A stretch of DNA of 64,000 bases from Thermomicrobium sp. 4228-Ro. GTDB lineage: Bacteria > Chloroflexota > Chloroflexia > Thermomicrobiales > Thermomicrobiaceae. Positions 6,321-58,224 of the stretch are shown piece by piece. The notes under the pieces are model-generated. The model ran no database searches and had not been told where the DNA came from. It was given only the letters and a program-made list of their open reading frames with translations. Positions within the stretch are counted from its first letter, which is position 1. Each line of letters starts with the position of its first letter. A program made the position numbers and the translations under genes. The stretch is taken from NCBI RefSeq assembly GCF_026241205.1, contig NZ_JAPFQM010000001.1:62001-126000 (forward strand), given 5' to 3'.

Positions 6321-6324
6321 AACC

Positions 6325-6756: not shown

Positions 6757-6769
6757 TCGCTGGACGGCA

Positions 6770-6800
6770 GAGACAGCGGGGAGGGACACCCACTCCCCGC
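6770..6800 (+). promoter_or_regulatory. Intercistronic hairpin
   Basis: GCGGGGAG and CTCCCCGC enclose GGACACCCA just upstream of AAGAAGGAAGGAG and the start at 6823. It could limit read-through or stabilise the downstream message. Same architecture as the leaders of the neighbouring genes. Confidence 0.45.
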
Positions 6801-6822
6801 AGCAAGAAGGAAGGAGCCGATC

Positions 6823-7200: not shown

Positions 7201-7281
7201 CGCGGTATCGGAGGGGGGGGGATCACACCCCTCCCCATAGTCGGCAAGACACGAACAGCAACGGAAGGAAGGAGCAGGACA

Positions 7282-7943: not shown

Positions 7944-7946
7944 GTC

Positions 7947-8366: not shown

Positions 8367-8379
8367 TGGGAGGAACACC

Positions 8380-8694
8380 GTGAATCCCTGGGATGTCCTC
8401 GAGACCGCGCTCCGTATCGTCCAGCGCTACCTCGATACCGATGATGCTCATTTTATCGCTGCTCAACTCGTTGCTGATTACGGAGCTGCAGTCCTAGATG
8501 GGAACCGTGATTGGCGAGAGGAGGTGCGAGAGGCACAGTGGGAGGTGGAGCGATACGCCAAACGCCATGCGTACTACGCACCGTGGAACCCCTGGGACGA
8601 AGAGGACTGGGCTTACCTCGAGAACCGCATCCTCGAGACACTGCAGGAAAGGGGCGAGCATGCGGATCCGGTGTCGCATCCGTCTGGGCCGTAA
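8380..8694 (+). CDS. Unrecognised small prophage protein
   Basis: 104 residues from a GTG preceded by GGGAGGAACACC. The C-terminal part is rich in aromatic residues (YYAPWNPWDEEDW). Its last 35 bases overlap the next gene in another frame, consistent with tight operon packing. No domain recognised. Confidence 0.65.
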   Translation: MNPWDVLETALRIVQRYLDTDDAHFIAAQLVADYGAAVLDGNRDWREEVREAQWEVERYAKRHAYYAPWNPWDEEDWAYLENRILETLQERGEHADPVSHPSGP

Positions 8695-8821
8695 CCGCTG
8701 GTTCGCACTCCTCTACCTGGATCCCGACAGGGCAAAGGTCCTGTCGGGACCTACGCTGGGAGAACTCATGCAGCGAGTACTGGACTACCTGCTGACGATC
8801 AACGAGGAGGTTCCCTCATGA
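8660..8821 (+). CDS. Unrecognised very small basic protein
   Basis: 53 residues starting at 8660 after GGAAAGGGGCG. Basic beta-like N terminus (MRIRCRIRLGRNRWF), then a helix. Overlaps the previous gene by 35 bp and the next start by ATGA. Short enough that expression is only inferred from the ribosome site and the coupling. Confidence 0.6.
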   Translation: MRIRCRIRLGRNRWFALLYLDPDRAKVLSGPTLGELMQRVLDYLLTINEEVPS

Positions 8822-9300
8822 CCGGACTAGAGCTGCTGAACTGGATCCGCGAACTGCATCGGATATCACCAGAGGTGATATCCGGAGACAAGGACCTCCA
8901 GGACTTCTGGAGCCAGGTTGAATCCTGGTTCCAGACTGTCACCGAGGCAGTTTCCTCCCTCGACTCTCTGCTGCCTGGCCAGGACACCGTGTTCCGTGTC
9001 CTCGAGGCGCTGCGCGAGAGCCTCCGCTGGGAACTGAAGCTGAATCGGTTCCTGCTCCCAGCTATCCAAAACCGTCAACCTAGCGATACCACGGCGCACC
9101 ACGTGGCATCCGTCTTCGGGATGATGTCCGGGGATCTTTTGGACCGCATTTTCACCCGCCTCGCCGTTCTCGCCGAAATCCTCGGTGTCCTCGATGGCAC
9201 CGTCGAGTTTCCCGAGGAGGCCTACCTCACCTACCAGGAGCTGTGGGGCATGGCCCAGGTAACCGATGCTCTCCATGCGGCACAAGACCTGGACGCATAA
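8818..9300 (+). CDS. Unrecognised small prophage protein
   Basis: 160 residues, acidic and helical, start coupled to the previous stop (ATGA). A short DNA palindrome, GGATATCACCAGAGGTGATATCC (8861-8883), lies inside the coding sequence and could be a regulatory site. No domain recognised. Confidence 0.7.
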   Translation: MTGLELLNWIRELHRISPEVISGDKDLQDFWSQVESWFQTVTEAVSSLDSLLPGQDTVFRVLEALRESLRWELKLNRFLLPAIQNRQPSDTTAHHVASVFGMMSGDLLDRIFTRLAVLAEILGVLDGTVEFPEEAYLTYQELWGMAQVTDALHAAQDLDA

Positions 9301-9323
9301 GGAAGAGAGAAAGGAAGGAAGCC

Positions 9324-9701
9324 GTGCAGGATCCGAGATCCGTGTCGTTCCTCGAGAGCCTGGACATCGCGTTCCGTGCTGAACCCCTGGCCGTCACCAC
9401 CTATGGTGACGGTGAGCACACCACGGCCCGCTACCGCTACCTGGTGGAGGCTTACCCGACGGAGCACCGAGAGGGAGGAATCCGCGGAGTCCTCGCCATG
9501 GTGGCCCGGCGAAGCCTGGGCGTCTCCTTCGCCTGGGAGGAGGTGCGTTGGGCCGACGGCGCACCGCTCTCGGAGGCTGAGGCCTGGGTCGCAATGGAGC
9601 TTTTGCTCCGCCACATCGCGGCACAACTGCTTTACCAGCACGCCTACGTCGCCGTGAAGGCAGGCGAGGTTCCCGTCAGGGAGGAGCAGCTCGATGCCTG
9701 A
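9324..9701 (+). CDS. Unrecognised small prophage protein
   Basis: 125 residues from a GTG 6 bases after AAGGAAGGAA. Beta-strand-rich first half (ARYRYLVEAYPTE), then a helix and a short acidic tail. The stop overlaps the start of the next gene (GATGCCTGA). No domain recognised. Confidence 0.7.
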   Translation: MQDPRSVSFLESLDIAFRAEPLAVTTYGDGEHTTARYRYLVEAYPTEHREGGIRGVLAMVARRSLGVSFAWEEVRWADGAPLSEAEAWVAMELLLRHIAAQLLYQHAYVAVKAGEVPVREEQLDA

Positions 9702-10164
9702 CCCAGCACTCTTCCGGAAACACATCCCCGTCTGGCTCGATGCCACCGTCGCGGAGCAGCTGGAGCGTATCCTCCTCCCCGGCACCCACCCCGCAACCAT
9801 GCTCCGTCTCATCCTCCGTGCTGCCCTCCGCGAGGTGACCGAGACCCAGCTCTCCGAGGGGGTGCGACAGGTCGCCACCCTCGCCTGGGCCGCTGTCGCT
9901 CCGCGCCGCCGGAGACCCGCCATCGTCGAGGTGCTGCCGCGCCTCGTCGACGAGCACCTCGAGGCCCTGGGTGCGAGCTACGCCACCCGGGCCAAGGTTT
10001 ATGCACTGCTGCTCCCTCTCTCCCCGCTCCAGCGCCTCGCACTCCTCGTCGAGGGGGCGAGGCAGGCCCGCCAGGCACTCGGGGGTGGAGCGCCCACCGA
10101 GGATGCCGGTGCGGAAGCGGCAGACGAGGAGAGAGTAGAAGATTGGGAGGTGGACGATGCCTGA
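9694..10164 (+). CDS. Small prophage protein with ribbon-helix-helix-like N terminus
   Basis: 156 residues. The N terminus (IPVWLDATVAEQLERIL, then a helix TMLRLILRAALREV) follows the strand-helix-helix plan of MetJ/Arc-type DNA-binding proteins, but this is a weak match by eye. The C-terminal 30 residues are acidic and probably disordered. It overlaps both neighbours by 8 bp. Confidence 0.55.
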   Translation: MPDPALFRKHIPVWLDATVAEQLERILLPGTHPATMLRLILRAALREVTETQLSEGVRQVATLAWAAVAPRRRRPAIVEVLPRLVDEHLEALGASYATRAKVYALLLPLSPLQRLALLVEGARQARQALGGGAPTEDAGAEAADEERVEDWEVDDA

Positions 10165-10714
10165 CCGCAACCGACGAGAGGAGAAGAGGATGACGACACT
10201 CGGGAAGCTCGCGAGACTGCATGAGCATGGACTCCCGGATCGTGTCCGCTGGGGGGCGGTAGCCGACACCGTCCTCCAGTGCCTGGAACAGCCACCATAC
10301 CCACCGGAGCGCTTCTGGGCCATCGACCCGCGAGGACCGCTCCGCGGTGCCTGGGTCGGGGATGAGCATTCCGTCACGGTACCCTTCCGCGAACTCGGCA
10401 AGCTCTACCAGGCGGTCTTCTTGCACTCCCACCCACCCGGTATGCCACCCACCGTCCATGATGCCTACCATGCCGTCATCGCCGCTTCCCCGCTGCTGGT
10501 CGTCGTCGAGGGAGAGACTGCCCACCTGGTCATGGTGTGGCATGACCGCTCCCCTGGCCTCGTCGGCACGCTCCTCTGGGAGGCACCGGACCTCCGGGCC
10601 GGGCTGCGCCGAGCCAGGGGTAGCTGGAGGCGCGTACCGCTCCACGAGGTGGGCGAAGCGATACGGGAACTCGAGGAACGCTGGCAGCAGTTCCTCCTCG
10701 CGCTGGAGGAATGA
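10157..10714 (+). CDS. Putative JAB/MPN-like metalloprotein
   Basis: 185 residues (or 174 if the start at 10190, after GAGGAGAAGAGG, is used). The centre has strand-loop VFLHSHPPGMPPTVHDA with H90, H92 and D102. This is close to the JAMM zinc motif (H-x-H-x7-S-x2-D), except that the spacer is one residue short and threonine replaces serine. JAB proteins cleave isopeptide or cysteine-adduct bonds, and phage versions act in tail assembly or against ubiquitin-like defences. Activity is uncertain. Position in the accessory operon rather than the tail block argues against a tail role. Confidence 0.5.
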   Translation: MPDRNRREEKRMTTLGKLARLHEHGLPDRVRWGAVADTVLQCLEQPPYPPERFWAIDPRGPLRGAWVGDEHSVTVPFRELGKLYQAVFLHSHPPGMPPTVHDAYHAVIAASPLLVVVEGETAHLVMVWHDRSPGLVGTLLWEAPDLRAGLRRARGSWRRVPLHEVGEAIRELEERWQQFLLALEE

Positions 10715-10715
10715 C

Positions 10716-11204
10716 ATGTACCTGTGTGGACGATGTCACGGTACGGGTACCCATCAGGGCAGCCGCTGCCCAGTCTGCGGTGGCTGGGGAGTTCTGCCGG
10801 GTATCCACTCCACCTGCAGCCGTTGCGGTGGCAAGGGTGCGGATAGCCGTGGCTACACTTGCCACCTCTGCTACGGGAAGGGCTGGGTAGCCTCCACGGT
10901 CCAGTACGAGGACCCACGCGTCACCCGTATCCCGGTTGCCACCCTCGCAGCGGTGTGGATCTCGGCGCGAGCCGGTGAACCCTCCCCAGTAGGGGAGCGG
11001 ACCACTGGTCTCGCGGCGGGTATCCTTCTCGCGCTGCAACGACATCGTGAGGAAACCGGACTCGAACCCGGGGAGCAGATCCGCCACCTCCTGCGCGAGG
11101 GTGGCTGGATCCTCATCGCACCAGATGGGATCTGGCACCTGGTGGAGGGCAAAACGCCTACGAGGATCGTGATGTTCCCGGCTCTCGGTTCCCAGGGATC
11201 ATGA
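10716..11204 (+). CDS. Protein with DnaJ-type four-repeat zinc finger
   Basis: 162 residues. Residues 4-56 contain four CxxCxGxG-like repeats (CGRCHGTG, CPVCGGWG, CSRCGGKG, CHLCYGKG), the pattern of the DnaJ central cysteine-rich domain that binds two zinc ions. There is no J domain. The C-terminal 100 residues are unrecognised. Start overlaps the previous stop region (GGAGGAATGACATG). It may bind unfolded protein or simply be a metal-stabilised adaptor. Confidence 0.75.
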   Translation: MYLCGRCHGTGTHQGSRCPVCGGWGVLPGIHSTCSRCGGKGADSRGYTCHLCYGKGWVASTVQYEDPRVTRIPVATLAAVWISARAGEPSPVGERTTGLAAGILLALQRHREETGLEPGEQIRHLLREGGWILIAPDGIWHLVEGKTPTRIVMFPALGSQGS

Positions 11205-14512: not shown

Positions 14513-16085
14513 TTACCCGAGGAAGACGATTTGCAAGCGGTTGAAGGTTCCGGCAGTCGCCTCGCCGTAAGTGGAGCGCGAGGTGCTGCACCAGATCACG
14601 ACGTCGATGGTGTCGTTGACGGCGCAGGGCAGGAGGATCTGCCCCGCAGCCTGGACATAGTCAGCCGTGTTGATGTTCTGGTCATAGATAAAGTGCTCGA
14701 CGCCATTCTTCCGCACTCGGAGCGAGACTCTGCCGCCACCGCTAGCACCATTGAGGAAGACCGCTACGACCACGAGGTAGAGCCCCCCCGAGGCCGACGG
14801 TATACACGTTGGTCGTCGCGTTCCAGCTCCCAGCTCCCGTCAAGCTCACGGCATCCGGGAAGCTCACCACCGTCGTCGTGGAGGCTGCGATGCTCTGCGA
14901 TGTCTTCTTCCCGCGGATCAAGAGGGGGCGGTTCCCGATGGTCACGTACCCCGAGACGGAGAGGTTTCCGTTGATGGAACCACCGCTGGTGAGCAGGAAG
15001 CTGGATGCGTGATAGCCGTCCACGAGGTCAGCATTGAGGTTGGTGCAGGGCGTACCGTTGGACACCGGGATCTGGCTCGCGGCGTTCCCCGCATGGTATC
15101 CATCCAGGAGATCCGCGTGGAGACTGGACCCCGATCCCTGTGGCGAGACCGCTACCGTGACCGTCTTGGTGGTGGTGTCCGCCGAGAGGCTGATATTGCT
15201 CCCGGAAGCCAGCGTCAGCGTATCCGTCGTCGCCGAGGCAGCGATGGTGGTGGTGCCGACCTTCACGTTGGAGAAGGCGTTCTGGTTCTGGAGAGCCGAC
15301 GCGTGGAGGCCATCCACCATGTCCGCGTTGAGGTTGGTACAGACGGTCCCGTTGGATACCGGGATCTGACCCGAAGCATTGCCAGCGTGATAGCTGTCGA
15401 GAAGGTCTGCATGCAGGCCAGAGCCGGAACCCTGCGGGCTCACCGCCACTGTCACCTGCTTATTCGTCGCATCCGGTGTCAGGGTAACGTTACTCCCCGC
15501 CGCCAGCTTTACCGTATCCCCGGGAGCCGTCGCGGCCACGTTGGTGCTCCCTACCTGCACCACGCCGAAGCTATTCGCGCTGCTCCCACCCGATGCCGCA
15601 ATCGTGACGCGCTTGTTGGTGGCATCGGGAGTCAACGTCACGTTGGACCCAGCGACCAGCTCGACGGTATCCGTCTTCGTCGTCGCGACGATGGTCGTAG
15701 TCCCGACCTTCACGTTGGAGAAGGCATTCTGGTTGACCTCGGCACCGGCTTGGATCCCGTCCAGCTTACTCTTGTCCGCTGCGCTCATGAAGCCAGCGGC
15801 AGTCGTGGTCGCATCGGGATGGCTATGGAATGCCGATGCGAAAGCACTGGCATGTTGCCCATCCAGGAGATCCGCGTCCAGCCCCGAACCGGCCCCTTGC
15901 GGGGAGATCTCCGCCGGTACGTGGGTATGTGCGGGAACGGTGAGCTGACGCGCTACCCAGCGCCCCTGTGCTGCATCCCAGAGCAACAGCGACCCATCCG
16001 ATGGGTTACCGGGGATCTCGACGTCCAGGAGCTGGCGAAGGCGCGTGCCGCGAGGGATCACCCGCTGAAACGTCTCCTCGGCCAT
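14513..16085 (-). CDS. Tail fibre protein with a frame break at a G7 run
   Basis: Reading from 16085 gives repeated fibre units: DLLDGYHA/DLVDGYHA, AFSNVKVGTTTI, GSNVTLTPDATNK and QIPVSNGT. It then hits a run of seven G (coding strand, about 14786-14792). With six G the frame continues as GLGGLYLVVVAVFLNG to a stop at 14513, giving about 523 residues; as written it stops at 14742 after 447. The continuation is a plausible globular fibre tip (receptor-binding domain). Either a sequencing error or a length-variable tract that switches the tip on and off. Confidence 0.8.
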
Positions 16086-37073: not shown

Positions 37074-38627
37074 TCACCAGGAATCGTAGGCCATGCGCTG
37101 GATCACCGGTTCGGGACGCTCCAGACGCCGGAACGGTGGGAGATTGACGAAAAAGTATTCGACAGCGCTCCGGAGATGGGAGGTCCCGTCGTGGATGGGC
37201 CTTCCCCTGTCGTCTCTCCGTGCACGGCTCATCGCCTCGTCGACGAGGGAGGCATCCACCGCTCCACCGGGGTTGACGTTGACCACGACGCGGCGGATCC
37301 CGATCTCGGTCATCTGCTTGCGCGTCAGGTAATCCCGCGCCCTCTGATTGGTGAAGACGTAGATCCCGTGCTGCTTCAGGATGTCGAGGACCGAGAGCCC
37401 GGTTCCGGCATGGCGGTTGCCACCCGCGGGATCACCGAAGTGGATCGGCCTCGCCCAGCGCTGGTGGGCCCGGATCTTGGCCTTTTCGTCCTCCGTGTAG
37501 AGGTGCTCGCGCTCCGGATCCAGCTCCCCAGTGACGAAGGGAATGAACCAGTCCACCGGCGTGTCGCGCCGCTGGATCGCATCCAAACAGATCACCTCGT
37601 CGCGTTCTCGATCCACCTGCCACCAGATGATGCAGGTGGTGTCCAATCCGAAGTCCCAGCTGCAGTAGAGCAGCGCATTCGGGTCGTAGTCGCGGCGCTC
37701 CCGGCGAACCCCCTGCCACCCCGGGTAGACCAGATCGCCCTGGTCCACGTAGGGATCCATCTCGAGTTCCTGGAGGATCTCCTCGCGGGTCTTCCGCTCC
37801 AGCTGCCGCTGGTACCAGTTCTCGTCCTTGCGCGGGTGCAACCGCCAGTGCAACTGGACCCGCGGGATCTGCCCGGATTCCCAGAGACGCCAGAACAGGT
37901 TGTCCGCACCGTTGACCGTCGACACCGCGATCCGGCACCTCGTGGCCTCCGAAGCGGAGCGCCAGGCTCGCTCCTGGGTATTCTTCTCCCAGTGCGCCAG
38001 CTCGTCGATGAAGATGACGGAAAACCGCCCCTGGCGTCCAAAATTCCCCTGCGAGGACTCCCCCTTGATGGCCGACCCGTTCTCGGGGTTCAGGAGCTTC
38101 ATGTGGAAACGGTGCTTCCGCGGCAGGAAACCCTGAGGCTTGAGCCAGGTCGGCAGGCGCTCCAGCATGTAGTCGATCCTGCCGAAGTGGGAGTCGACCA
38201 GCCGGTTGTCCACCAGATCCTCGGTGCGGGACCCGATGAGCGCCTGGAAGCCCTCGTCGAAGAGCCAGTGCCAGAGGAGCCAGGCCATCGCCACCCAGCT
38301 CGCGCCCATGTCGCGGCTCTTGAGGACGATCCCGTCCTCCTGGTTGCGATAGCGCTGCTCGTACCAGTGGATGAGATCGACCTGGTAGTCCCAGAGGATG
38401 AACGGGATGTGCGGGCTCGTCCCGCTCTCCAGCTCGCGGGGATCGAAGGTCCACAGCGCGAAGTTGCAGAACCACGCCGGGTCCTCGCGGCAACGCCGCC
38501 GTATCTCCTCGCGCAGCATCGGATCCCGTTGCGCCTGGACGGTCAAGAGGGCGCGCTCCTTGAGCGTCGGCGGGTGGTCCGGGATCAGGACCCGGCCTCG
38601 TGGAGACGAGCTAGCCACCGTGCCCAC
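37074..38627 (-). CDS. terL: Terminase large subunit
   Basis: 517 residues. ATPase domain with Walker A-like KSRDMGAS (about 103-110) and Walker B VIFIDE (about 204-209, catalytic E209). C-terminal RNase H-like nuclease has acidic strands SWDFGLD (about 312) and HFGDPAG (about 385), with a last motif DEAMSRARRDD. It cuts and pumps phage DNA. Overlaps the small-subunit gene by 43 bp. Confidence 0.92.
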   Translation of the reverse strand: MGTVASSSPRGRVLIPDHPPTLKERALLTVQAQRDPMLREEIRRRCREDPAWFCNFALWTFDPRELESGTSPHIPFILWDYQVDLIHWYEQRYRNQEDGIVLKSRDMGASWVAMAWLLWHWLFDEGFQALIGSRTEDLVDNRLVDSHFGRIDYMLERLPTWLKPQGFLPRKHRFHMKLLNPENGSAIKGESSQGNFGRQGRFSVIFIDELAHWEKNTQERAWRSASEATRCRIAVSTVNGADNLFWRLWESGQIPRVQLHWRLHPRKDENWYQRQLERKTREEILQELEMDPYVDQGDLVYPGWQGVRRERRDYDPNALLYCSWDFGLDTTCIIWWQVDRERDEVICLDAIQRRDTPVDWFIPFVTGELDPEREHLYTEDEKAKIRAHQRWARPIHFGDPAGGNRHAGTGLSVLDILKQHGIYVFTNQRARDYLTRKQMTEIGIRRVVVNVNPGGAVDASLVDEAMSRARRDDRGRPIHDGTSHLRSAVEYFFVNLPPFRRLERPEPVIQRMAYDSW

Positions 38628-44116: not shown

Positions 44117-46174
44117 TCAGCAGCGGTAGCGGAGACCGCACTGGACAGTGTTGACCGTCGGGTACGGTCTGTTGGTGGCTCCATCGTGATTGACGCCAGC
44201 AAGACGACTCGAAAGAGTCGAAACCGACATCGTCGTCGAGTCCACAGCATTGACGAGATTGATCAGGTTGACCGTCGTCTGATTGTTGACGGTTCGGATG
44301 ATCATCATGCCCCTCTCGAAGTACTGGACGTAGTCGCAGACTCCGTCCTGGCACTCCTGGAAGTGCCCGGAGAGAGGTCGACCTATCAGCATCACGGTCT
44401 CCCAGAAGTCGATGCCAGAGACGCCGCGCTCCCTGCCGATCTTGGACCAGTACTGGCTGTACAGATCGCCGCAGATCTGGTGGTGCGTCGTGTCGTCGAA
44501 GTAGGTGCAACTCGCTGCATCGCGGATCACCGCGTTGGGGTCGAAGGGATTCGCCTGCCCGTTGCTCAGCACACAGTAGTCGACGCCGTTGTAGTACTTC
44601 ACGACGGGGCAGTAGACGTAGATCGGCGTCCCACCAGAACCCAGCGTGTAGCGGAAGCGATACCCAGGATTGGCGGTGGTACTGATGAGACCTGTCGCTT
44701 GGGCCCGAAGAATGCCGATCTCGTAATTGAACTGCCGGTTCTTGTCGGAGGCCAAGCCCTTCTGGGTCACCAGGTACCAGCGACCATCACTCGGGTTCTT
44801 CCACCAGCCGCGAATGGATCCGTAGATGTAGCCGCTGCCCCCGAGAGACGAGGACTGCGCGCCATCCCGATAGTACGAGAAGATGTACTGGTTCTGCGAA
44901 TCCACGTATTTCCCCGAGTTGCCCAGGGCGACGGCATCCACTTCACCAGCGAGTGCAGCGAGATGGTACTGGTCCAGGAAGTACGGGATCAAAGCATTGC
45001 CCGAGCTGTCTTTGTAGTTCGTAGCATTACCAGTGCAACCGTTCCCGGTCACGCCATCCTGATGCCAGATGCCAGTCGTGTAGATCAGGACCGCGAGAAT
45101 ATTGCTGGTCCCAAAGCGCTGCGCGTAGGCCTGGATAGCCCGGCGGTTGTGCGAACCCTTCACCAGTCCAGGACGCCTGATGGCGGGATCGCTGCCCTCT
45201 TCCAGATACCCGAAGCACTGATTGATGTTCTGCTCGCCGATGATGATGGGGACGCCTGGGATAGCAGACCTCAGGGCAGCAATCGTCTGTACACTGTAAC
45301 TCTCCGTGGACGCGTTGATCGGCCAGGCGTTCACGTTGATGAGCACGCCGTCATAGACATGGGTATCGATAGCATTGATCTGGCCACGATCAGGATTGCT
45401 ATTGAATGCCGACGTGAACGCATTCAACAACGAGCTATCGTAGTTCTGCGAGAACGAGGGGCCAGCCAGGACCATCTTGATCTGGCTCGACGGCATGCCC
45501 TGATTGATGAGCCAGCTACGGAGACCCTTGGCGATGGCGATGCCATCGTTCACGTAGGCCGTCATCTCCGCCGTCGAGAGTGTCCCATCGCAGTTCTGGT
45601 CAGCCTCGGGGGTCGAGCCACCGTTGACAATGTTGGGCTCATTGCCGATCTCGAACCAGATGGTAGCCCCGCTGTTCGCTACCGAGATCAGGCTCGGGAG
45701 CAGTGCACCGTAGCTGCCCCGGCTCATGGTCAAACGGTTCTGCGCGTTGGACAGCGTCATGGCAGCCTTGGCAGTTTCCGTAGAGCAGGTCACGTACTGG
45801 TTGCCGCTCTGGTGCACCTGATGGGACACCGTGAGAACCAAGAAGTTGCGGATCCCCGCGTTGTAGAGATCCACGATATCCTGCCCCACGAGGAGGTTCT
45901 GGTCGAAGGTCGCCCACACGCGTACCCAGCGCGACCCCGCATTCTGGTGCACCTGGATCTGGTACGAGAGCGTGCCCTCCGTCGGCGGTTTGGTGGATTG
46001 CAAGCCGCGAGCATACTCGCCCAGGTTCGGCGAGGTGAAGCCGTAGGGAATCGTCGTCTGCGCAGCCTGGGCCTCGTGCACGCGGGGTACCGGTGCCACC
46101 ATCGCGAGCAGCGGAACCAGAAGAAGCACGAAACTCAGGGACGCGAGAAACCATGACGGGAACCGGCGCCGCAT
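44117..46174 (-). CDS. Secreted glycoside hydrolase-like cargo protein
   Basis: 685 residues from 46174. Signal peptide at 1-38 (hydrophobic core SFVLLLVPLLAMVAP, cleavage near AQA-AQ). A TIM-barrel clan-A glycosidase pattern: WFEIGNEP with E179 as candidate acid/base, and IIIGEQN with E314 as candidate nucleophile. The C-terminal part carries GRPLSGHF ... YVQYFERGMMI, the same module as in the endolysin. It may act on surface polysaccharide. Low in phage-like features, so cargo acquired from a Chloroflexota genome is inferred. Substrate unknown. Confidence 0.7.
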   Translation of the reverse strand: MRRRFPSWFLASLSFVLLLVPLLAMVAPVPRVHEAQAAQTTIPYGFTSPNLGEYARGLQSTKPPTEGTLSYQIQVHQNAGSRWVRVWATFDQNLLVGQDIVDLYNAGIRNFLVLTVSHQVHQSGNQYVTCSTETAKAAMTLSNAQNRLTMSRGSYGALLPSLISVANSGATIWFEIGNEPNIVNGGSTPEADQNCDGTLSTAEMTAYVNDGIAIAKGLRSWLINQGMPSSQIKMVLAGPSFSQNYDSSLLNAFTSAFNSNPDRGQINAIDTHVYDGVLINVNAWPINASTESYSVQTIAALRSAIPGVPIIIGEQNINQCFGYLEEGSDPAIRRPGLVKGSHNRRAIQAYAQRFGTSNILAVLIYTTGIWHQDGVTGNGCTGNATNYKDSSGNALIPYFLDQYHLAALAGEVDAVALGNSGKYVDSQNQYIFSYYRDGAQSSSLGGSGYIYGSIRGWWKNPSDGRWYLVTQKGLASDKNRQFNYEIGILRAQATGLISTTANPGYRFRYTLGSGGTPIYVYCPVVKYYNGVDYCVLSNGQANPFDPNAVIRDAASCTYFDDTTHHQICGDLYSQYWSKIGRERGVSGIDFWETVMLIGRPLSGHFQECQDGVCDYVQYFERGMMIIRTVNNQTTVNLINLVNAVDSTTMSVSTLSSRLAGVNHDGATNRPYPTVNTVQCGLRYRC

Positions 46175-46780
46175 AGTGTCGACACCCCTTCTCCTCGACA
46201 CGAAGCCGACAAACGGGAACACCTTGTGGCCGGAACCGCTTGCCCTCGGAGTCGACGGAAACAGGCACGGGCACCCTCAGGAGGCGCGAGCAGCGCCAGG
46301 GGGTCGACGACACCGGACCCGGAAACAGGTGAGGGTGCTGATCCGACCTGCCTCGAATCGGGAGCGAGGAATCCCGGCACCAGGAGGAAGCGCTGACGGC
46401 TCCTAGCGGAACCGGCAGCGACCAACGCTTGCAGGCGAAAGCAGTGGCATCAGCGCGGTGACAGTGCCACGGTAGTGGAGCGGCTCCGGAGCGGGGGAGA
46501 GTGGTGCCGGGATTTTCGGCTCCCATAAGATAAGCGCCAGACCCGGGTTCCCGGAGACCCTCGGGGCTCGGGTTTCGTGGTCAGAATTCCGCACCGGGAC
46601 GCCAAAAATGGGACCTTGCCAGTCGCGTTCCCGATAAGATCCGCATCGGGACGCGGAAGTCACCTCAGCGCCGACGGTGCCGGGAGACCTCGAGGGGTGT
46701 AATTTTGATTACACCTGGCAACGGGGTCATCGCTACCGCTCCGAGGTGAGCAGAAGTTACCTCAGTTTCGACATCGTAAA
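46175..46780. other. Divergent non-coding region, low-repeat part
   Basis: No credible gene. Contains a perfect hairpin GGTGTAAT-TTTG-ATTACACC (46696-46715) and an imperfect one GAGGT ... ACCTC (46743-46763). Promoter for the glycosidase-like gene must lie near 46180-46260 but no consensus stands out. Confidence 0.5.
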
Positions 46781-47760
46781 CGCTGTCGATGCCCAGGGCT
46801 CCTGCCGGAGCCCTGGTGGGGGAGAGGGGGAATACTGCCGGGAATCCTGGTGCTACCTCGGTAGCCTGGATACCAGTGGCTACCGTGGTGGGCTCCTCGG
46901 TAACCGGAGGATACCGGAGAAGCGCTTTAGCGCTTCGGGAAAAGAGAAACGGTTGCTTCCTGCTGCTGGCCCCTATAAGGAACAGGATCCCTAGGTACCA
47001 GGATTCCTGGTAGCAGCTACAGGATACCTGGGAGCTACCATGGATCCTGGATCCCAGAGATTCCATGGGATCCCTGGTAGCAGCTGCAGGATACCTGGGA
47101 GCTACCAGGAACCCAGGATTCCAGGTGGCAGCTTCAGGAAACCTGGTAACTGATGATTCTCCGGTTACCTGGTAGCTCCCAGGTATCCAGGATCCCTGGT
47201 AGCTCCTCTGGGATCCGGGATTCCTAGGAGCTACCTGGTAACCACCGTTTCCTCGAGGAGCTTAAAGCTCCCTTAGGCAGCTACCAGGAATCCTGGATCC
47301 CTGGTAGCCTCTCTGGGATCCAGGTACCTGGTAACCCTGGTTTCCTGGAGGAGCTTAAAGCTCCCCCAGGTAGCTACCAGGCAGCTCCAGGGTACCTGGT
47401 AGCTACCTGGTAACCCTGGTTCCCTTTAGGGGCTTAAAGCCCCGTTAGGCGGCTTCCAGGTTCCCGGTGCTACCTGGTAGCCTCAGTTTCCTACGGGAGC
47501 TGGAGACTCTCTGGTGCAGCTACCAGGTAGCGAGCAGCTACCTGGATACCTGAAGGCGCTTCTCGCGCCTCGAGATAACTTCCAGGATGCTTCCAGGGTG
47601 TGCCTCGGAGATACCCAGGAGCCATCAGGTAGACAACCAAAGTGTAGCCAGGTATTTCCGGTTCGGGTCCAGGATTCCTGCAGCTACCAGAGTACCCAGG
47701 TAGCGAGCAGCTACCTGGTAGCTGCTGGTTCCCTGAGAGATTCGACACCCCTCGAGGTGG
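46781..47760. repeat. Tandem hairpin-repeat array
   Basis: About 1 kb made of CCAGG/CCTGG, GGATCC, GGTACC and GGTAGCTACC words. At least four imperfect tandem units of about 58 bp, each TACCTGG ... hairpin ... CTACCAGG, start at about 47231, 47324, 47403 and 47471, with a fifth at about 47537. Unit hairpins are GGAGCTTAAAGCTCC (two copies), GGGGCTTAAAGCCCC, and AGGCGC-TTCTC-GCGCCT, i.e. both arms change together. GGGCTCC-TGCC-GGAGCCC (46797-46814) and AAGCGCT/AGCGCTT (46920-46935) are further hairpins. A long + frame through it is repeat-derived and not a protein. Replication origin or large structured RNA are the main options. Confidence 0.85.
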
Positions 47761-47891
47761 TCCTGGGTAGCTTCCAGGAGGATCCCGAGAGCGAGCTCGG
47801 TTGCAGCTGGAAGCATCCGGAGGAACTCGAGGCACCGCTGCTTCCTCCCCGCGGCATCCGTTGGTTCCCATGGTTGACCATTTGGCACCTC

Positions 47892-47920
47892 TTGACGGTG
47901 GTTCCGTTTGGTGCTACACT
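47892..47920 (+). promoter_or_regulatory. Sigma-70 promoter of the replication module
   Basis: TTGACG (47892-47897), 17-bp spacer, TACACT (47915-47920), start about 47927 and first gene at 47969. GGCACC (47884-47889) and GGTGCC (47921-47926) flank it as an inverted repeat and resemble the GGTACC operator words elsewhere, so it may be repressed in the lysogen. Confidence 0.75.
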
Positions 47921-47968
47921 GGTGCCAGCGGAACCGGAGCGATGCAAGCGGAACCGAGGAGGGTGCCG

Positions 47969-48574
47969 ATGGAAGAGCGAACCAAGCGGGAGAACCGGCA
48001 GCTCCCGAGTATCCAGATCCGGACCCGCGGGCAGGTGCAGCAGGTCTACCGCTACCGCGACGTGCTCAACCTCGCCTACCAACACGGTCTGGTGGCATTC
48101 GAGCAGGCGGCTCCCATCCAGGTCGTGATGGTTCCCTCGCAGCGCGACCCGGAGCGGATGACCCCCCTCTTCATCAGCGAGGTCTACGCGGTCTTCCGCA
48201 ACAGCGACGGATCGCTGGTGCGTTTCCACGGCGTCGGCGACTGCAGTTACGAGAACGCGCAACCCAACGTGGCGGCAGCAGGACCCCGGATGGCGCACAC
48301 CCGCGCCAAAGCGCGTGCCCTGGCGGATGCGCTGAACCTGGATGCCAATCTCAGCGAGGAGTTCGACCTCAGCGACGACACCACGGGGTCGCAAACGGTT
48401 GCAGCTGCGGGAGCCTCGAGTGGACGGGAACCTCGCTCCCCACGCGATGGTGTCCAGGTTCCGTCGGACCCCCATTGCTCCCGGTGTGGCGGCTCGATGA
48501 GCCAGCGGAGCGCCGAGTATTCCCTGCGGATTCGGGGTGATTTGGTCTGCTACCGCTGCGCGAAGGGTTCCTGA
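47969..48574 (+). CDS. Putative single-strand annealing protein with zinc ribbon
   Basis: 201 residues from 47969 (GAGGAGGG upstream). The core FISEVYAVFRNSDGSLVRFHGVGD, then AAGPRMAHTRAKARALADALNL is the pattern of phage Rad52/Sak-like and related annealases (strand, then a conserved R-M-A-x-T-R-A-x-A-R-A-L helix). The C terminus is a zinc ribbon (CSRCGG ... CYRCAKGS). First gene of the replication module, as is usual for phage recombinases. Confidence 0.6.
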   Translation: MEERTKRENRQLPSIQIRTRGQVQQVYRYRDVLNLAYQHGLVAFEQAAPIQVVMVPSQRDPERMTPLFISEVYAVFRNSDGSLVRFHGVGDCSYENAQPNVAAAGPRMAHTRAKARALADALNLDANLSEEFDLSDDTTGSQTVAAAGASSGREPRSPRDGVQVPSDPHCSRCGGSMSQRSAEYSLRIRGDLVCYRCAKGS

Positions 48575-49990: not shown

Positions 49991-51712
49991 GTGGGCATCT
50001 GGCGCATCGCGACGGGGATCCTGCAACAGGAGGAGCGGTGGGTGCAAGCACCGCGGCAGCCACGCGGTGTCCCGACGGGCCTAGCTGCTCTCGATGCGCT
50101 GACGCATGGGTTGCGCCCTCGGGAGGTGACGCTCCTGGCGGCGAGGACCAGTCACGGCAAATCCGCACTGGCGCTCACCATCGCCGTGAACGTCGTCAAG
50201 TGGGAGGTCCTGCGCAGCTTGCGGGAGCGCCGGGTACCAGGGCGTGTCCTCTACCTGTCGCCGGAGATGCATCCGGAGCAGCTCCTCATGCGTCTCGCCT
50301 CCGCCGAGAGCCGGGTAGACCTGGAAGTGATTCAGGACGGGATCGCGCTTCCGGAGCAGCGACGTCGCTGGCGGGAAGCGCTGGAGTCCCTCGAGCCCCT
50401 GGATCCCTTCCTGGTCATCGAGGGTGGTCAGGGGATGGACATCAACGACGTGGAGTCGGCGATCCGCAGCCATCATGCCGAGCATCCCCTGGTTTTGGTC
50501 GTCATCGATTACCTCCAGCGTCTGAGCTACGGTGTCGTCGACGACGATTACCGCCGCCTCTCGCTGATCTCCCAGACCATCAAGGACCTCGCCAACGAGA
50601 CCGGGGTACCGTTCTTGGTCGTCTCGCAGCTCAACCGGCAGATCGAGAGGGACCGGCACCAGGTGGACCGTCTCCCGGACCTGTCGGATCTGCGTGGGTC
50701 CGGCAGGCTGGAGGAGGATGCCGATAACGTCTGGATCCTCTGGCGTCCACCCAAGCTCTCGACGGAAAGCGCCTCGGCACCGCAGAGCGCCAAGCTCCTG
50801 GTCGCCAAGGCACGGAGCGGCAAGGTCGGCGAGGTGGATCTCTGGTTCTACCCGCGCATCGTCTCCTTCGTCGACTCGGGATCCGGGAGAGTACGCGCTG
50901 ACGGTGGTCTCGCGCTCCACTCCGTTGCCGGTGAACCGCTGCCCAATCTCGTGGAGCTGGGGCGGATGCTGGGCGAGGGGCGGGAGCGGGGTAGTGGTTC
51001 TCCCGTCTCGTCGGATGGTCCGGAGCAGGCGGACTATCCCGAGGACCCCGACGATGGCCCCACCGGTTCCGCGTCGGAGCTTGCCGGTGCAGGAGAGAGC
51101 GGCGGTCTCCGGTTCGGTGGTGTCGAGGGCAGCGTACTGGACCGTCTGGAGGACCTGGCGGAGGCGTTTCGCTCCTGGCTGGAATCCGGTGCCCCGGCGG
51201 GGAGCAGGCTACCGGTTGCCAGGGCAACCGGTGGCGAGGCAGGGCAGGCTGGTGGAGACCAGCAGGTCAGCAGCGGCGGCCTGGTGTTCTGGTGCCGGGA
51301 ACCGGGGACCCGGAGGGGATCCGGGAAGAGTCGAAAGGACTCGGGGGAGGGGGACTGCGAGGATGCTGGTGACCCAGCCTCGAAGCGGGCACCTCCCAAG
51401 GGGCGCAGGCGCGGTGCCGAGTTCGAGAAGCGGCTCGCCAGACGCCTCGGAGCCTACCGCTGGCCAGGGCTGGACGGCGATATCGAGACACCGCAGGGGT
51501 GGAGGCTCGAGTGCAAGTACCGGGAGGGCTTGGTGCTTGACCGCCGGGATGAATTGAGGTATTGGTTAGAACAGGTGTACGACTACGCGGCACGCTGGCA
51601 ACCCGGGAAACGCTGGGCACTGGCTCTCACCGGTGGGCGGAGGTACCGCAAGGGGCAGGTTTACGTCCTCATGCCGCTGGAGTTCTGGTGGGAGCTGGTA
51701 TGCGCTACGTGA
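49991..51712 (+). CDS. DnaB-type replicative helicase fused to a PD-(D/E)XK nuclease
   Basis: 573 residues. It lacks the DnaB N-terminal domain and starts directly with the RecA-like motor: Walker A ARTSHGKS (51-58), Walker B VLVVIDY (168-174), SQLNR (212-216) and LSDLRGSG with EEDAD (231-245). After a low-complexity linker (about 340-470) there is a C-terminal domain with E477/E479, D495/D497 and LECK (E507, K509) followed by a conserved helix. This is the pattern of Holliday-junction-resolvase-like nucleases. A single open frame with no break joins both. Confidence 0.85.
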   Translation: MGIWRIATGILQQEERWVQAPRQPRGVPTGLAALDALTHGLRPREVTLLAARTSHGKSALALTIAVNVVKWEVLRSLRERRVPGRVLYLSPEMHPEQLLMRLASAESRVDLEVIQDGIALPEQRRRWREALESLEPLDPFLVIEGGQGMDINDVESAIRSHHAEHPLVLVVIDYLQRLSYGVVDDDYRRLSLISQTIKDLANETGVPFLVVSQLNRQIERDRHQVDRLPDLSDLRGSGRLEEDADNVWILWRPPKLSTESASAPQSAKLLVAKARSGKVGEVDLWFYPRIVSFVDSGSGRVRADGGLALHSVAGEPLPNLVELGRMLGEGRERGSGSPVSSDGPEQADYPEDPDDGPTGSASELAGAGESGGLRFGGVEGSVLDRLEDLAEAFRSWLESGAPAGSRLPVARATGGEAGQAGGDQQVSSGGLVFWCREPGTRRGSGKSRKDSGEGDCEDAGDPASKRAPPKGRRRGAEFEKRLARRLGAYRWPGLDGDIETPQGWRLECKYREGLVLDRRDELRYWLEQVYDYAARWQPGKRWALALTGGRRYRKGQVYVLMPLEFWWELVCAT

Positions 51713-52319
51713 GACTGGGGGACGATGAACTCGCGGAACTGCGCCGCCTCGCCGGGGCCATCGAGGAGTCGAAGGAACGGTTTCCGGCCTCGGACTGGGG
51801 AGTCGACAGCCTCGAGTCGCGGTTCCTGGCGCTCTGTGCGGAGCGGTGCGTCGCGCAGCTCCTCGGATGCGAGCACGAGGTGCAGGTGTTGCCGGGGGGT
51901 GACGGTGGGATCGACCTGGTTCTGCCGCGGGAGACGGCTTACGGGAGAACCGTCGAAGTCAAGTTCCGGCGCTCACGGAAGTCGGATCTGGCGACGGCAT
52001 CTCTCCGGTTCTGGGAGGAGCTGGTGGCGGACATCTACGTCCTGGTGTGGCCAGCGGCGGAGCAGGGGGGTCCGCCGAGCAGGGATTCACCGTGGTCGGT
52101 TTCGCGACGCGGCGGCAGTTCCACGAGAGGATCCTCGCCAGGCCGCCGGTGCGCATGAAGGGCGAGAAGTGGGAGCTACCCTGGCAGGATCTCCAGCCGA
52201 TTGAGGTTTTAGTTTCGGAGGTGCGGGGTGAAGCAGCTCATCGCGATAGCGGGGAAGTCGGGTGCGGGGAAGTCGACGCTGGCGGAGGCGCTGGCGGTCC
52301 TCTACGACCTGCCGCGTGA
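51700..52319 (+). CDS. PD-(D/E)XK nuclease-like protein, frame broken at a G6 run
   Basis: Starts at 51700 inside the helicase gene's end. Residues about 60-95 hold GGDGGIDLVLPRET and RTVEVKFRRS, a D ... E-x-K nuclease core. At 52065-52070 (six G) the frame as written goes wrong. With one more G it continues as EQGFTVVGFATRRQFHERI to at least KWELPWQDLQPIEVL. The corrected end is unclear (a stop at 52319 overlaps the next gene by 92 bp). Sequencing error or slippage is likelier than decay, because the downstream frame is well kept. Confidence 0.65.
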
Positions 52320-52731
52320 CAGTTTCGCGACACCGATCCGCTGGGCGCTGCAGGAGCTGGGCGTCGCCGCTCCCTATCCGCGACGACTCATGCAGCGGTT
52401 AGGCCGGTGCCTGCGAGACGAGGACCCGGACCACTTCGTCAAGCTCCTCGCGTTGCGGAACCCAGCGTTTTCCCAGACGGGCCTGGTCATCGACGATGTG
52501 CGATACGAGAACGAATACCGCTGGTTGCGCGACCACGGTTTTGTCCTCATCTACCTCAAGGGGAGCTTCCGACCTCTCGAGGGTGAGGAGGCGGAGGACG
52601 AGAGCGAGACTGCGCTCTCGCCGGAGCGGGTGCGTTTCGACCTGGTACTCCCAGCGGGTAGCTCGGTGGTGCAGCGGGTAGCGGCGGTCTCCCGACTGCT
52701 GCGCGACCCGGCCCTCTCTCCTGTCGCGTGA
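52228..52731 (+). CDS. Deoxynucleoside monophosphate kinase-like protein
   Basis: 167 residues from a GTG after GGAGGTGCG. Walker A GKSGAGKST (9-17), an Asp-Arg-type lid region (VIDDVRYENEYRWLRDHG at about 91-108) and overall plan like T4 gp1-type dNMP kinases. It would phosphorylate dNMPs for phage DNA synthesis. The stop overlaps the polymerase start region. Confidence 0.75.
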   Translation: MKQLIAIAGKSGAGKSTLAEALAVLYDLPRDSFATPIRWALQELGVAAPYPRRLMQRLGRCLRDEDPDHFVKLLALRNPAFSQTGLVIDDVRYENEYRWLRDHGFVLIYLKGSFRPLEGEEAEDESETALSPERVRFDLVLPAGSSVVQRVAAVSRLLRDPALSPVA

Positions 52732-52739
52732 GGTGCGCG

Positions 52740-54773
52740 ATGTGGAGCTACGCGCTGGTGCGTGATGTTCCGGATCTGCCTCCTGGACCGGTAGCGCTGG
52801 ACATCGAGACTACGGGTCTCCGTACCGGGGTGGACGAGGTCGTCGTGATCACCGTGGCGACACCGGACCAGGCTTGGGTCATCGACTGCCGGGCTTTGAA
52901 CCGTGAGTCGGTGGCGGAGTGGTTGCGACGACTCTTCGCGAGGCACGCCATCCTGGTCCACAACGCGATCTTCGACGTGGTGTTCCTCCAGGTCGCCTAC
53001 GGGATCCCCGCTCCGCGGGTGGGATCCCTGTGGGACACCAAGCTGGTGGAGGGAATCCTGCGGGGAGGAGCGGCTGACGCCTCGCTGCAGGAACTCGCTC
53101 AGGACTACCTGGGTCTGGCTCTCGACAAATCCTGGCAGACGAGCTTCGCTGACGGAGGTGACCTCAGCGAGGAGCAGGTGCGCTACGCCGCTTACGATGC
53201 GCTGGTCCTCCATGGTATCCAGGCAGCGCAGCACCGGCGGTTGCGGGACCGAGAGCACCTGTTCCGGGTGGTGGCTCTGGAGCATCGGGTAGCTCCGGCC
53301 TTCTGGGAGATGCAGCGCCGCGGGGTGGCAGTGGACCTCGCGGTGCTGGAGGAGGCAGCGGAGAGCTGGCGCTCCGAGTCCGAGGCCCTCCGGGTGCGGT
53401 TGGAGGGACGGCTCACCCGACGGGTCATCGCCATGCGGGAGTCGAGGGTAGCGCGTTCCGAGGAGGATCTCCGGCGCTGGAACGAGGAGCTGGAGGCGGT
53501 CCTCGCCGAGTGCGAGGCGGAGTGGCGCGAGCACCGCGAGGACCCGAGCTGGCAAGCGGTGCTGCGGGAGACCTGGCTCGGCTACCCGGTGACCGAGAGG
53601 ACGACGGTGACGGAGGAGGAGATCCAGCGCTGGCTGGACCCCGAGAAGGGACTCCGCCGGTACCTGGATCGGGTGCGCCAACGTTTCCGGCGGGAGCATC
53701 CGAGACCATCGGTTCCGCGAGTAGACGTCTGGGCACCGATCAACCTGCTGTCGTCGCAGCAGCTCCTGGAGGCGCTGAACGGCGAGCTGCGGGAGGCAGG
53801 GTTGGCGGAGGTCTCGACGACGGAGTCGAAGGTTCTGCGGAGTCTCTTGGGCGCGAGTGAGGATCTGGACCGCGAGGTGCTGCGCCCACTCCTGCGCTAC
53901 CGGGAGCTGGAGAAACTCCTCGACTTCGTGGAGCAGATACGGGAACACACGCGGGGTGGGGTGCTCTATCCGGACTGGCAGCAGATCGGTGCCGCGACGG
54001 GGAGAGCCTCCTGCCGCAACCCGAACCTCATGGCGCAACCCAAATTCGCAGGGTTCCGGCGCGCCTTCGTAGCTCGGGAGGGGCATGTCCTGGTTACCGC
54101 CGACTACTCCCAAATCGAACTCCGCATCATGGCGGCGCTGTCGGGTGATCCGGAGATGACGCGAGCCTTCGTGGAGGGGCAGGACCTGCACCGTTTGACG
54201 GCTTCCCGGATCTTCGGGGTACCGGAGGATACGGTCACGGAGCGACAGCGCAAGATCGGGAAGCAGGTGAACTTCGGCACCTTGTACGGCATGGGTGCGC
54301 GACGGCTGGTGGCTGAACTCGCTGCGCAGGGGATCCGCATCAGCGTCGAGGAGGCACAGGAGGCGCTGGATGGCTGGAGGCGGACCTACCGGCGGGCAGC
54401 GGGGTGGATCCGGGAGCGGGGCGAGGAAGCGGTTCGAGAGGGCTCCGTGGAGACGGCGCTGGGGAGGATCCGCAGCTTTCCGCCGCCCCGCGATGCTGCC
54501 GAGGCAGCCTCGATAGCGAGACGGGGTGGCAATCTCCCGATCCAGGGAACCGCTGCCGACATCATGAAGCTAGCCATGAGCGAGCTGGTCGGCATGGGGA
54601 TAGTTCTGCAGGTGCATGACGAGCTGGTGCTCGAGGTTCCGGAGCAGCAGGCGGAGGTCGCGGCAGCGGTGATCGGGGAGACGATGCGGCGGTGCGCCGA
54701 AGAGGTTCTGGACGGCTTCCCGGTGGAGGTGGACGTCACGGTGGGACGGAGCTGGGCGGAGGCAGCGGAATGA
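52740..54773 (+). CDS. polA: Family A DNA polymerase with 3'-5' exonuclease domain
   Basis: 677 residues from ATG 52740 (GAGGTG upstream); a GTG at 52728 is an alternative. Exonuclease motifs: DIETTGL at 21-27, HNAIFD at about 76, and YAAYD at about 151. Polymerase motifs: A DYSQIELR at about 454, B RQRKIGKQVNFGTLYG at about 502 and C QVHDELV at about 623. No 5' nuclease domain, as usual for phage enzymes. It replicates the phage genome together with the DnaB-like helicase and the primase. Confidence 0.95.
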   Translation: MWSYALVRDVPDLPPGPVALDIETTGLRTGVDEVVVITVATPDQAWVIDCRALNRESVAEWLRRLFARHAILVHNAIFDVVFLQVAYGIPAPRVGSLWDTKLVEGILRGGAADASLQELAQDYLGLALDKSWQTSFADGGDLSEEQVRYAAYDALVLHGIQAAQHRRLRDREHLFRVVALEHRVAPAFWEMQRRGVAVDLAVLEEAAESWRSESEALRVRLEGRLTRRVIAMRESRVARSEEDLRRWNEELEAVLAECEAEWREHREDPSWQAVLRETWLGYPVTERTTVTEEEIQRWLDPEKGLRRYLDRVRQRFRREHPRPSVPRVDVWAPINLLSSQQLLEALNGELREAGLAEVSTTESKVLRSLLGASEDLDREVLRPLLRYRELEKLLDFVEQIREHTRGGVLYPDWQQIGAATGRASCRNPNLMAQPKFAGFRRAFVAREGHVLVTADYSQIELRIMAALSGDPEMTRAFVEGQDLHRLTASRIFGVPEDTVTERQRKIGKQVNFGTLYGMGARRLVAELAAQGIRISVEEAQEALDGWRRTYRRAAGWIRERGEEAVREGSVETALGRIRSFPPPRDAAEAASIARRGGNLPIQGTAADIMKLAMSELVGMGIVLQVHDELVLEVPEQQAEVAAAVIGETMRRCAEEVLDGFPVEVDVTVGRSWAEAAE

Positions 54774-55162
54774 GCGGGAAGCGGCAGGAGGGGATACCCG
54801 GGAGTGTGCGGATCGGTGGGGTGCGGTACCGGGTGGTGGTGGAGGATGAGCTGGTCAGCGAGGAGGGAGTGGAGCTTCTCGGTCAGCACGACTACGGGAG
54901 GTTGCTCTTGCGGTTGTCGCTGGCGGCGGATCCGGAGCTGCGCCCCTTCGTGCTCCTACACGAGATACTGCACGCCTGCGTCACGGTGAGCGGTGGGGAT
55001 TCGCATCAGGAGGAGGCGCTGGTGGCGGGGCTCTCGCATGTGCTCTTGCAGGTGCTGCGGGAGAACCCGGACCTGGTCCGCTACCTCCTCGGTTCGGGAA
55101 GGAGAGCAGACGGTGCGGCGGTGTCGAGTCCCGCAGCGGAGGCGTCTGGTGGACCCGCTTGA
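54770..55162 (+). CDS. Zincin-like putative metallopeptidase
   Basis: 130 residues, ATGA overlap with the polymerase gene. LLHEILHACV (H64-E65-x-x-H68) and a downstream EEALVAGLSHVL helix (E82/E83 possible third ligand) form a minimal zincin fold of a kind common in phage replication modules. Substrate unknown. Confidence 0.7.
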   Translation: MSGKRQEGIPGSVRIGGVRYRVVVEDELVSEEGVELLGQHDYGRLLLRLSLAADPELRPFVLLHEILHACVTVSGGDSHQEEALVAGLSHVLLQVLRENPDLVRYLLGSGRRADGAAVSSPAAEASGGPA

Positions 55163-55364
55163 GGTGTTGGAGCGGATCCGTTGGGAGATCCTGGAGGCCA
55201 ACGGAGCTGGCGAGCACCTGTGGGAGCGTCTCTCGCACCTGGGGGAGGCGCTGGAGCTGGTAGCGGTTTTGGAGCAGGCTGTCGAGGATGCGATCCGCGC
55301 CACGGCGATGGATCTCCAAGCGTGGGGTGGGAGCGAGGGTGACGCGCTGCTGGAGGGCTCCTGA
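55113..55364 (+). CDS. Unrecognised small replication-module protein
   Basis: 83 residues from GTG 55113 (AAGGAG upstream), or 71 from GTG 55149. Basic N terminus, then helices (LERIRWEILEANGAGEHLWERL). Overlaps the zincin gene by 50 bp and ends on the next start. Confidence 0.55.
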   Translation: MRRCRVPQRRRLVDPLEVLERIRWEILEANGAGEHLWERLSHLGEALELVAVLEQAVEDAIRATAMDLQAWGGSEGDALLEGS

Positions 55365-56245
55365 TGGTGGTGCTGGTGCGGTGCCCGTATCACGAGGACT
55401 CCACGCCGTCTCTGGCGTTGTACCGGGACCATGCCTTCTGCTTCGGTGGTTGCGGGCTGGTGCCGCTGGAGTGGCTGCCGGAGAACCTACGGGAGCTGTC
55501 AGCGCGGCAGCGGGAGACGCGGGAGCGTGCTGGCGGTGGCTTTACCCGGGAGCAACTGAGGGTCCTGGTGGAGGCCTGGTGCTGGAACCTGCTGGAGGGG
55601 ACGCGCCGACACCGGCTCTCCTGGTTGGAGGACCGCGGTATCGATGCGCAAGCGGCGCGTCGTTTCCGGCTGGGGCACTCGGGTGCCTGGTTCACGATCC
55701 CGGTGCTGCAGGGGAGGGAGGTGGTGGGGGTACGGTTCCGCCGGGATCCCTACTACCTCGACGAGGACGAGGGGCCGAAGTATCGGAACCCCAAGGGGCA
55801 GCCGGTACTGCTGTACCGTCCTAACCCTGGCGGCTGGCCGCTGGTGGTGACCGAGGGGGAATTCGATGCCATGCTGCTGTGCCTGGCGGGGTGCGATGCC
55901 GTGACGGCGACGGCGGGGGCTGGGAGCCTGGTGAGCCTGCTGGAGCGGGAGGGGATACTGGGGCGGTACCGGCGGGCTGGGAGTGTCCTGCACGTGGCGA
56001 CGGACCAGGATGCAGCTGGAGAGCAGGTGGTGGAGCAGCTGGTGAGGCGGGGTTTCCGGGTGTGTCGCTGGCGCTGGGAGGGGGCGAAGGACGTCTCCGA
56101 GGCGCTGGCGCGAGTCCCGCGCAGCCAGTGGTCGTCTCGGGTGCGGCGTTGGATCCGCGAGGGCGAGGTGTGGTCTCCCCGGAGGGAAAGGAAAGGGTTA
56201 GCGGAAGGGGGCCTGGATGCCCGCTGTCGGATGGTGGCTGGGTGA
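55364..56245 (+). CDS. DNA primase: CHC2 zinc finger plus Toprim
   Basis: 293 residues. Zinc-binding C7, H10, C26 and C30 (CPYHEDSTPSL, FCFGGCG), then a linker helix, then Toprim with VVTEGEFDA (E about 163) and ATDQDAAG (D about 213). It lacks a helicase domain, which is supplied by the DnaB-like protein. Makes primers for phage replication. Confidence 0.88.
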   Translation: MVVLVRCPYHEDSTPSLALYRDHAFCFGGCGLVPLEWLPENLRELSARQRETRERAGGGFTREQLRVLVEAWCWNLLEGTRRHRLSWLEDRGIDAQAARRFRLGHSGAWFTIPVLQGREVVGVRFRRDPYYLDEDEGPKYRNPKGQPVLLYRPNPGGWPLVVTEGEFDAMLLCLAGCDAVTATAGAGSLVSLLEREGILGRYRRAGSVLHVATDQDAAGEQVVEQLVRRGFRVCRWRWEGAKDVSEALARVPRSQWSSRVRRWIREGEVWSPRRERKGLAEGGLDARCRMVAG

Positions 56246-58151: not shown

Positions 58152-58224
58152 TGCACGGTCTTCAAAACCGGTGGGCGGGGTGACGAGCCTCGCCGGTGGG
58201 TTCGACTCCCATGCGCCCTCGCCA
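58152..58224 (+). repeat. attR: 73-bp core, 3' fragment of tRNA-Sec
   Basis: Exact copy of 3314-3386 including the TCA anticodon, variable arm, T arm and CCA. The 5' acceptor and D arm are absent, so it is not a functional tRNA. It marks the right boundary with the chromosome. Confidence 0.95.

Follow-up and report, generated by a model that had tools for sequence, protein, structure and literature searches.

A patchwork of palindromic words beside the replication operon of a Thermomicrobium prophage, possibly part of its replication control region

Repeats and palindromes near module borders are a usual place of pac/cos or partition sites, and the REP/BIME-type elements of bacterial chromosomes are dispersed palindromes that lie between genes and in clusters. 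In Volvox organelle DNA, selfish short palindromic repeats are dispersed over the whole organelle genome (PMC2670323). The origin of Vibrio PLE consists of three semi-palindromic iterons of about 30 bp in non-coding DNA, with which the DNA-binding domain of RepA covaries (PMC7145576, PMC8263062). GOLLD and ROOL RNAs have covarying conserved structures and are often found near tRNA islands (PMC12286853).

The array described here lies in a stretch of 64,000 nucleotides (the window) that contains a prophage. Like REP/BIME elements, it is palindromic, intergenic and clustered, but its words are not scattered over the host chromosome. With the Volvox repeats it shares nested palindromes that dominate non-coding DNA in the same style with different sequences, the loops being TTTA/TAAA in Volvox and the centres TTAA/TTTA in the array; in contrast to the dispersed Volvox repeats, it is confined to one phage site (PMC2670323). 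Like the PLE origin, it is non-coding, has repeats with inverted sub-repeats and diverges between close relatives. However, its dyad word is shorter and occurs in about 20 near-copies, together with many variants; the array has no known initiator, and its words change while the downstream proteins are conserved (PMC7145576, PMC8263062). GOLLD and ROOL RNAs are likewise phage-borne, large, non-coding and highly structured by prediction, whereas no conserved structure was found for the array, which is not near tRNA genes (PMC12286853).

Prophage and gene map

The window's prophage is intact and integrated at tRNA-SeC. Its 73-bp att repeats (3314-3386 and 58152-58224) are 100% identical, and the first forms the 3' part of the tRNA-SeC gene (3290-3386). 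Two related viral contigs measure 54,058 and 54,025 bp, compared to about 54.9 kb for the prophage. The array occupies a divergent gap, with late genes running leftward from 46222 on one side and the rightward replication operon on the other:

3314-58224, unstranded: prophage hosting the array, about 54.9 kb, with att repeats and integrase
3457-4632: integrase (Phage_integrase match, 5.4e-24)
37074-38627: terminase large subunit, 8-9 kb from the array
44117-46222, leftward: late-side neighbour gene of the array, about 30% identical in sister phages
46838-47786, unstranded: array, in which CC..GG and GG..CC palindromic words alternate as a patchwork over both strands
47892-47920, plus strand: sigma-70-like promoter of the replication operon, TTGACG-17-TACACT
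47969-48574, plus strand: opening gene of the replication operon; 201-aa product with CxxC pairs at the C-terminus and no family match
49991-56245, plus strand: replication genes as a group
49991-51712, plus strand: DnaB helicase
52728-54773, plus strand: PolA-type polymerase, named from match pattern and sequence
55364-56245, plus strand: primase

The replication promoter that the initial annotation had placed close downstream of the array is indeed present (47892-47920). Comparable hexamers occur in sister phage L008 and in HR28 (TTGACA/TATAAT; Bacterium HR28, contig G006:C4, BEIE01000004.1, a genome of the same genus). Array words are also present around this early promoter, in 47801-47968.

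The AlphaFold model of the 201-aa protein is poor (pLDDT 62). Foldseek with this model gave RAD52 among its matches at E 0.4-0.8, VIA-align gave nothing above Z 4.2, and no match to the protein was found among GenBank phage records. A Rad52-type annealing protein is only a guess. On the late side, a 54-kb contig (IMGVR_UViG_3300031776_000001, its two ends being L087 and L088) carries two different copies of the terminase large subunit, one near each end, with 91% and 90% to the window.

Units, words and conserved flank

A tandem array had been proposed for 46781-47760. This kilobase is non-coding as described, but the array itself extends from about 46838 to 47786, since 46781-46816 belongs to the conserved flank, and only 47214-47527 is tandem, the remainder being a patchwork. 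The array words consist of alternating CC and GG separated by short AT spacers. The four related units were recovered, each about 57 bp from TACCTGG to a closing CCAGG (starts at 47232, 47325, 47404 and 47471). They are members of a 75-nt direct-repeat family and 65-79% identical to the first copy. The array contains the following elements:

47232-47288, plus strand: unit 1, TACCTGG ... GGAGCTT-A-AAGCTCC ... CTACCAGG
47325-47381, plus strand: unit 2, hairpin as in unit 1 (GGAGCTT-A-AAGCTCC)
47404-47460, plus strand: unit 3, hairpin GGGGCTT-A-AAGCCCC, closing word CTTCCAGG
47471-47527, plus strand: unit 4, hairpin broken
46919-46936, unstranded: hairpin GAAGCGCT-TT-AGCGCTTC
47554-47570, unstranded: hairpin AGGCGC-TTCTC-GCGCCT
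47537-47550, plus strand: GCTACCTGGATACC, the longest word that all three phage versions share in their arrays
47469-47481, 47519-47531 and 47710-47722, unstranded: perfect copies of GCTACCWGGTAGC, with 15 near-copies elsewhere in the array

A central hairpin and the same ending had been assigned to every unit. The hairpin is found in units 1 to 3, but in unit 4 it has lost two of its seven pairs, and unit 3 closes with CTTCCAGG rather than CTACCAGG. Change on both hairpin arms is limited to one pair (A-T to G-C) among the three unit hairpins, and the AGGCGC/GCGCCT hairpin, earlier counted with the units, lies outside all four. With four copies, one such double-arm change does not speak for selection.

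The array is genuine and lies far outside what chance would give. Its description as being built of GGATCC- and CCAGG-type words is borne out by the counts, with GGATCC found 9 times (1.0 expected), CCWGG 43 times (6.4 expected) and GG[AT]2-3CC 35 times (4.5 expected). Repeated 8-mers, counted on both strands, make up as much as 49% of a 600-bp segment at 47001, compared to a mean of 7% over the 64 kb. The density of inverted 8-mers peaks at 0.31. Over 1.37 Mb of phage DNA, scanned in 13,699 windows of phage loci, the mean is 0.016 (about 19-fold lower) and the 99th percentile 0.07; no other site in the window or among 93 related loci is as strong. Thirteen perfect hairpins with arms of at least 7 were counted in 1.47 kb, versus about 1 in shuffles and about 2.5 in the rest of the prophage. 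An EM de novo motif search on the array converged to a degenerate CC/GG pattern. A known tandem repeat or CRISPR was rejected, with Tandem Repeats Finder giving only short pieces of 16 and 28 bp. A coding function was rejected as well, in agreement with the initial annotation, because the ORFs across the array have no alignable counterpart in relatives, including the sister phages.

The commonest word of the window is GCTACCWGGTAGC, a 13-bp dyad with 18 near-copies in the array and 9 in the other 53 kb of the prophage. As this word was read off the window array, these counts are descriptive, and only the sister arrays provide a test. In the L008 array, the motif occurs 4 times in 601 bp versus once in 21 kb (about 140-fold), while its enrichment in the HR28 array is weak (about 10-fold, only at 3 mismatches). 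A reversed-motif control gave 2 matches versus 2.9 expected. For GCTACCWGGTA, 10 of the 13 copies in the 3.07-Mb genome fall in the array, and BLAST of the array against its own genome found only the array itself, the words not being dispersed in the host chromosome.

Left of the array, about 300 bp of non-coding DNA are far better conserved than the adjacent gene 44117-46222 (about 30% identical), and contain three conserved palindromes:

46502-46815, unstranded: conserved non-coding flank, aligning at 86% (HR28) and 67% (L008)
46696-46715, unstranded: palindrome P1, GGTGTAAT-TTTG-ATTACACC, identical in three phages
46768-46789, unstranded: palindrome P2, TCGACAKCGT-WW-ACGCTGTCGA, centre AA in the window, TT in the two sister versions
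46793-46816, unstranded: palindrome P3, CCAGGGCTCC-TGCC-GGAGCCCTGG

P1 to P3 are probably operators of the late promoter region. RNAalifold gave no covariation support on this flank.

Sister phages and palindrome turnover

An array is present at the same place in three sister phages, which represent two independent versions; three versions were compared in all, two of them independent of the window. In each phage the array measures 570-980 bp and lies between the conserved flank and the gene matching 47969, which is about 85% identical in HR28/L011/L117 and L008. Using blastn, no similarity between the window array and the sister arrays was found. At the level of short words, 39 10-mers are shared between window and HR28, 26 between window and L008, and 15 between HR28 and L008, versus respectively about 2.4, 1.7 and 0.8 in dinucleotide shuffles, which preserve dinucleotides and not the relatedness of the arrays. 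Nineteen 8-mers are common to all three arrays (0.9 in shuffles). The shared words follow no common order, the longest increasing subsequence being what permutations give, and they are split about evenly between the two strands. In the sister phages, the array words extend into the early promoter region and not into the left flank. The sister phages keep a vocabulary of words with order and orientation scrambled, which argues for DNA of a control region or a self-spreading repeat and against a structured RNA.

Outside this place, the fetched DNA of the sister phages is almost without such arrays. The four more distant phages L009, L010, L119 and L120 carry the same set of replication genes (59-61% identity in the gene matching 47969) but lack a comparable array here, their site being occupied by other, partly conserved non-coding DNA. 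A search for a homologous array among 61 relatives returned a flank match only, in G006, and the array region had no match among 50,697 GenBank phage records.

Near-identical phages from different samples illustrate how these palindromes change. L005 and L117 have only three differences in about 1.7 kb around the array. One of them replaces CA by TG in the very middle of a 60-bp palindrome (9617-9676 in L005, 9601-9660 in L117), as inversion of the palindrome would do. In L008, three palindromes of about 48 bp have shared outer arms in unrelated contexts, with changes of the inner stem compensated on the other arm (stems TCAGGGC, TCGAGGC and TTAAGGC) and the loop reversed in one of the three. 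Together with the AA/TT centre of P2, these observations indicate that palindromes of the array region are copied and, most likely, flipped.

A different palindrome patchwork was observed beside the integrase of L010 (IMGVR_UViG_3300009854_000484, 15200-16000). It is made of CCTCGAGG, GCATCGATGC and terminator-like hairpins, some of which lie inside a small ORF (15106-15498). L009, near-identical to L010, has other DNA at this site.

Possible roles of the array

The array is read, weakly and with a probability of roughly 0.4, as a cluster of cis-acting DNA sites of the replication control region, and possibly it is the replication origin itself. In both prophages, the cumulative GC skew reaches its lowest point at 44-46 kb, a position at the array or slightly to its left. 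The 4-fold-site skew of plus-strand genes is negative at 3.4-10 kb and positive at 48.5-57 kb; therefore, gene direction alone does not explain the pattern. The GC skew is still partly confounded with gene direction. Shared words without order, alike on both strands, are expected of a binding-site cluster. The constant position, an orderless vocabulary that reaches into the early promoter, and the skew minimum favour a cis-acting DNA role. The array also has the repeated dyad words, close to the replication genes, that mark iteron-type phage origins. Origin or control DNA is thus possible and slightly favoured.

According to the mechanism proposed, the roughly 20 short dyad-symmetric words, here mainly GCTACCWGGTAGC-like and on both strands, would be putative protein-binding sites placed between the late regulatory flank and the early replication promoter. 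A DNA-binding protein of phage or host might occupy many of them cooperatively and either assist in the opening and loading of an origin at this site or regulate the divergent promoters next to it. The choice, number, order and orientation of the words would be free, allowing fast turnover of the array by duplication, inversion and palindrome flipping while the vocabulary stays. We infer protein binding to the words and a role in replication or promoter control. If so, the region would be a replication module whose cis element keeps words and not order, and would offer a way to study how temperate phages of deep-branching thermophiles replicate.

The origin that the initial annotation had suggested keeps its fixed place beside the replication operon, the skew minimum and the orderless vocabulary on its side; against it stand the lack of an initiator family in the replication operon and the absence of the array from the distant phages with the same replication genes. 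The region has no DnaA boxes and no strongly AT-rich stretch (52.5% AT in the most AT-rich 40-mer). To our knowledge, neither DnaA boxes nor an AT-rich unwinding stretch are obligatory in phages. A cis-acting role is also opposed by the dominant words, which differ although the downstream proteins are about 85% identical, something a conserved binder would not predict; the shared vocabulary could come from common descent of the repeats.

A close rival, almost as probable, is that the array might be self-propagating or mutation-driven palindromic DNA with no function of its own, as in green-algal organelles, with palindromes that copy into each other, become perfect through template switching and fill a tolerant divergent gap. 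This would agree with the L008 arms, which stay perfectly complementary in non-homologous contexts while their sequence changes, with the L005/L117 palindrome differing only by its centre, and with the free variation of array length and content. The other words of the L010 patchwork and the missing array in distant relatives also fit, as do the likewise nested Volvox palindromes with TTTA/TAAA loops (PMC2670323). Nested palindromes with copies in both orientations are indeed present. However, the spread to many genomic sites that marks selfish repeats is not seen, either by BLAST or with GCTACCWGGTA (10/13 in the array), and the three sister phages have the array at one constant place, their fetched DNA being almost free of it elsewhere. 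Moreover, the vocabulary is shared above expectation with no trace of old collinearity, and a useless kilobase is costly for a 55-kb phage. Flips and copies are explained better by such repeats than by a cis element, the single fixed site is not. Simple repeat expansion, the outcome against which the initial annotation had set its proposals, is only half excluded, as the array is absent from distant relatives but the property is conserved in sister phages. The two explanations are not exclusive in nature, as a repeat may be recruited. A selfish array would amount to a palindromic element of organelle style that is restricted to a single phage site, and two near-identical genomes would have captured one of its flips.

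A phage replication or control region that rearranges itself, functioning through its dyad-word vocabulary only while flipping and copying reshuffle order, number and orientation, is unlikely. Such reshuffling would perhaps let the phage evade factors of the host or of satellites directed at fixed origin sequences.

A large structured phage RNA, GOLLD- or ROOL-like in kind, had also been suggested and is very unlikely. The predicted folding is very strong (z of -10 on the plus and -14 on the minus strand; -11.6 and -13.0 for the sister arrays), but the pairing is Watson-Crick and equally strong on both strands. In each of the three arrays and on either strand, G-T pairs amount to 5-8% of pairs (10-13% in shuffles), as exact inverted DNA copies would give. 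Rfam returned no family at gathering level over the array, weaker matches being eukaryotic miRNA models or far below the cut-off, and neither a GOLLD/ROOL covariance-model match nor a covarying conserved structure was found. No promoter reading into the array was detected, the sole consensus promoter reading away from it, and the arrays of relatives are not alignable and have no common structure. A packaging (pac/cos) or partition site, likewise proposed earlier, is highly improbable, with the terminase 8-9 kb away, a phage that integrates at a tRNA-SeC att site, and no ParA/ParB family among the proteins and ORFs scanned.

Host REP elements were rejected as a source of the array because the host repeats use other words and BLAST of the array in its own genome finds only the array. 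In a host background of about 440 kb (18 sampled stretches plus flanks, some DNA of G006 included), only L129 comes near the array density, with quite different, REP-like words. This stretch (1-11000; C1:1000001-1011000) is a phage-like tail/amidase region whose intergenic gaps are full of REP-like palindromes, and its repeat GTGCGGGAGAGGGG has 31 copies in the host genome.
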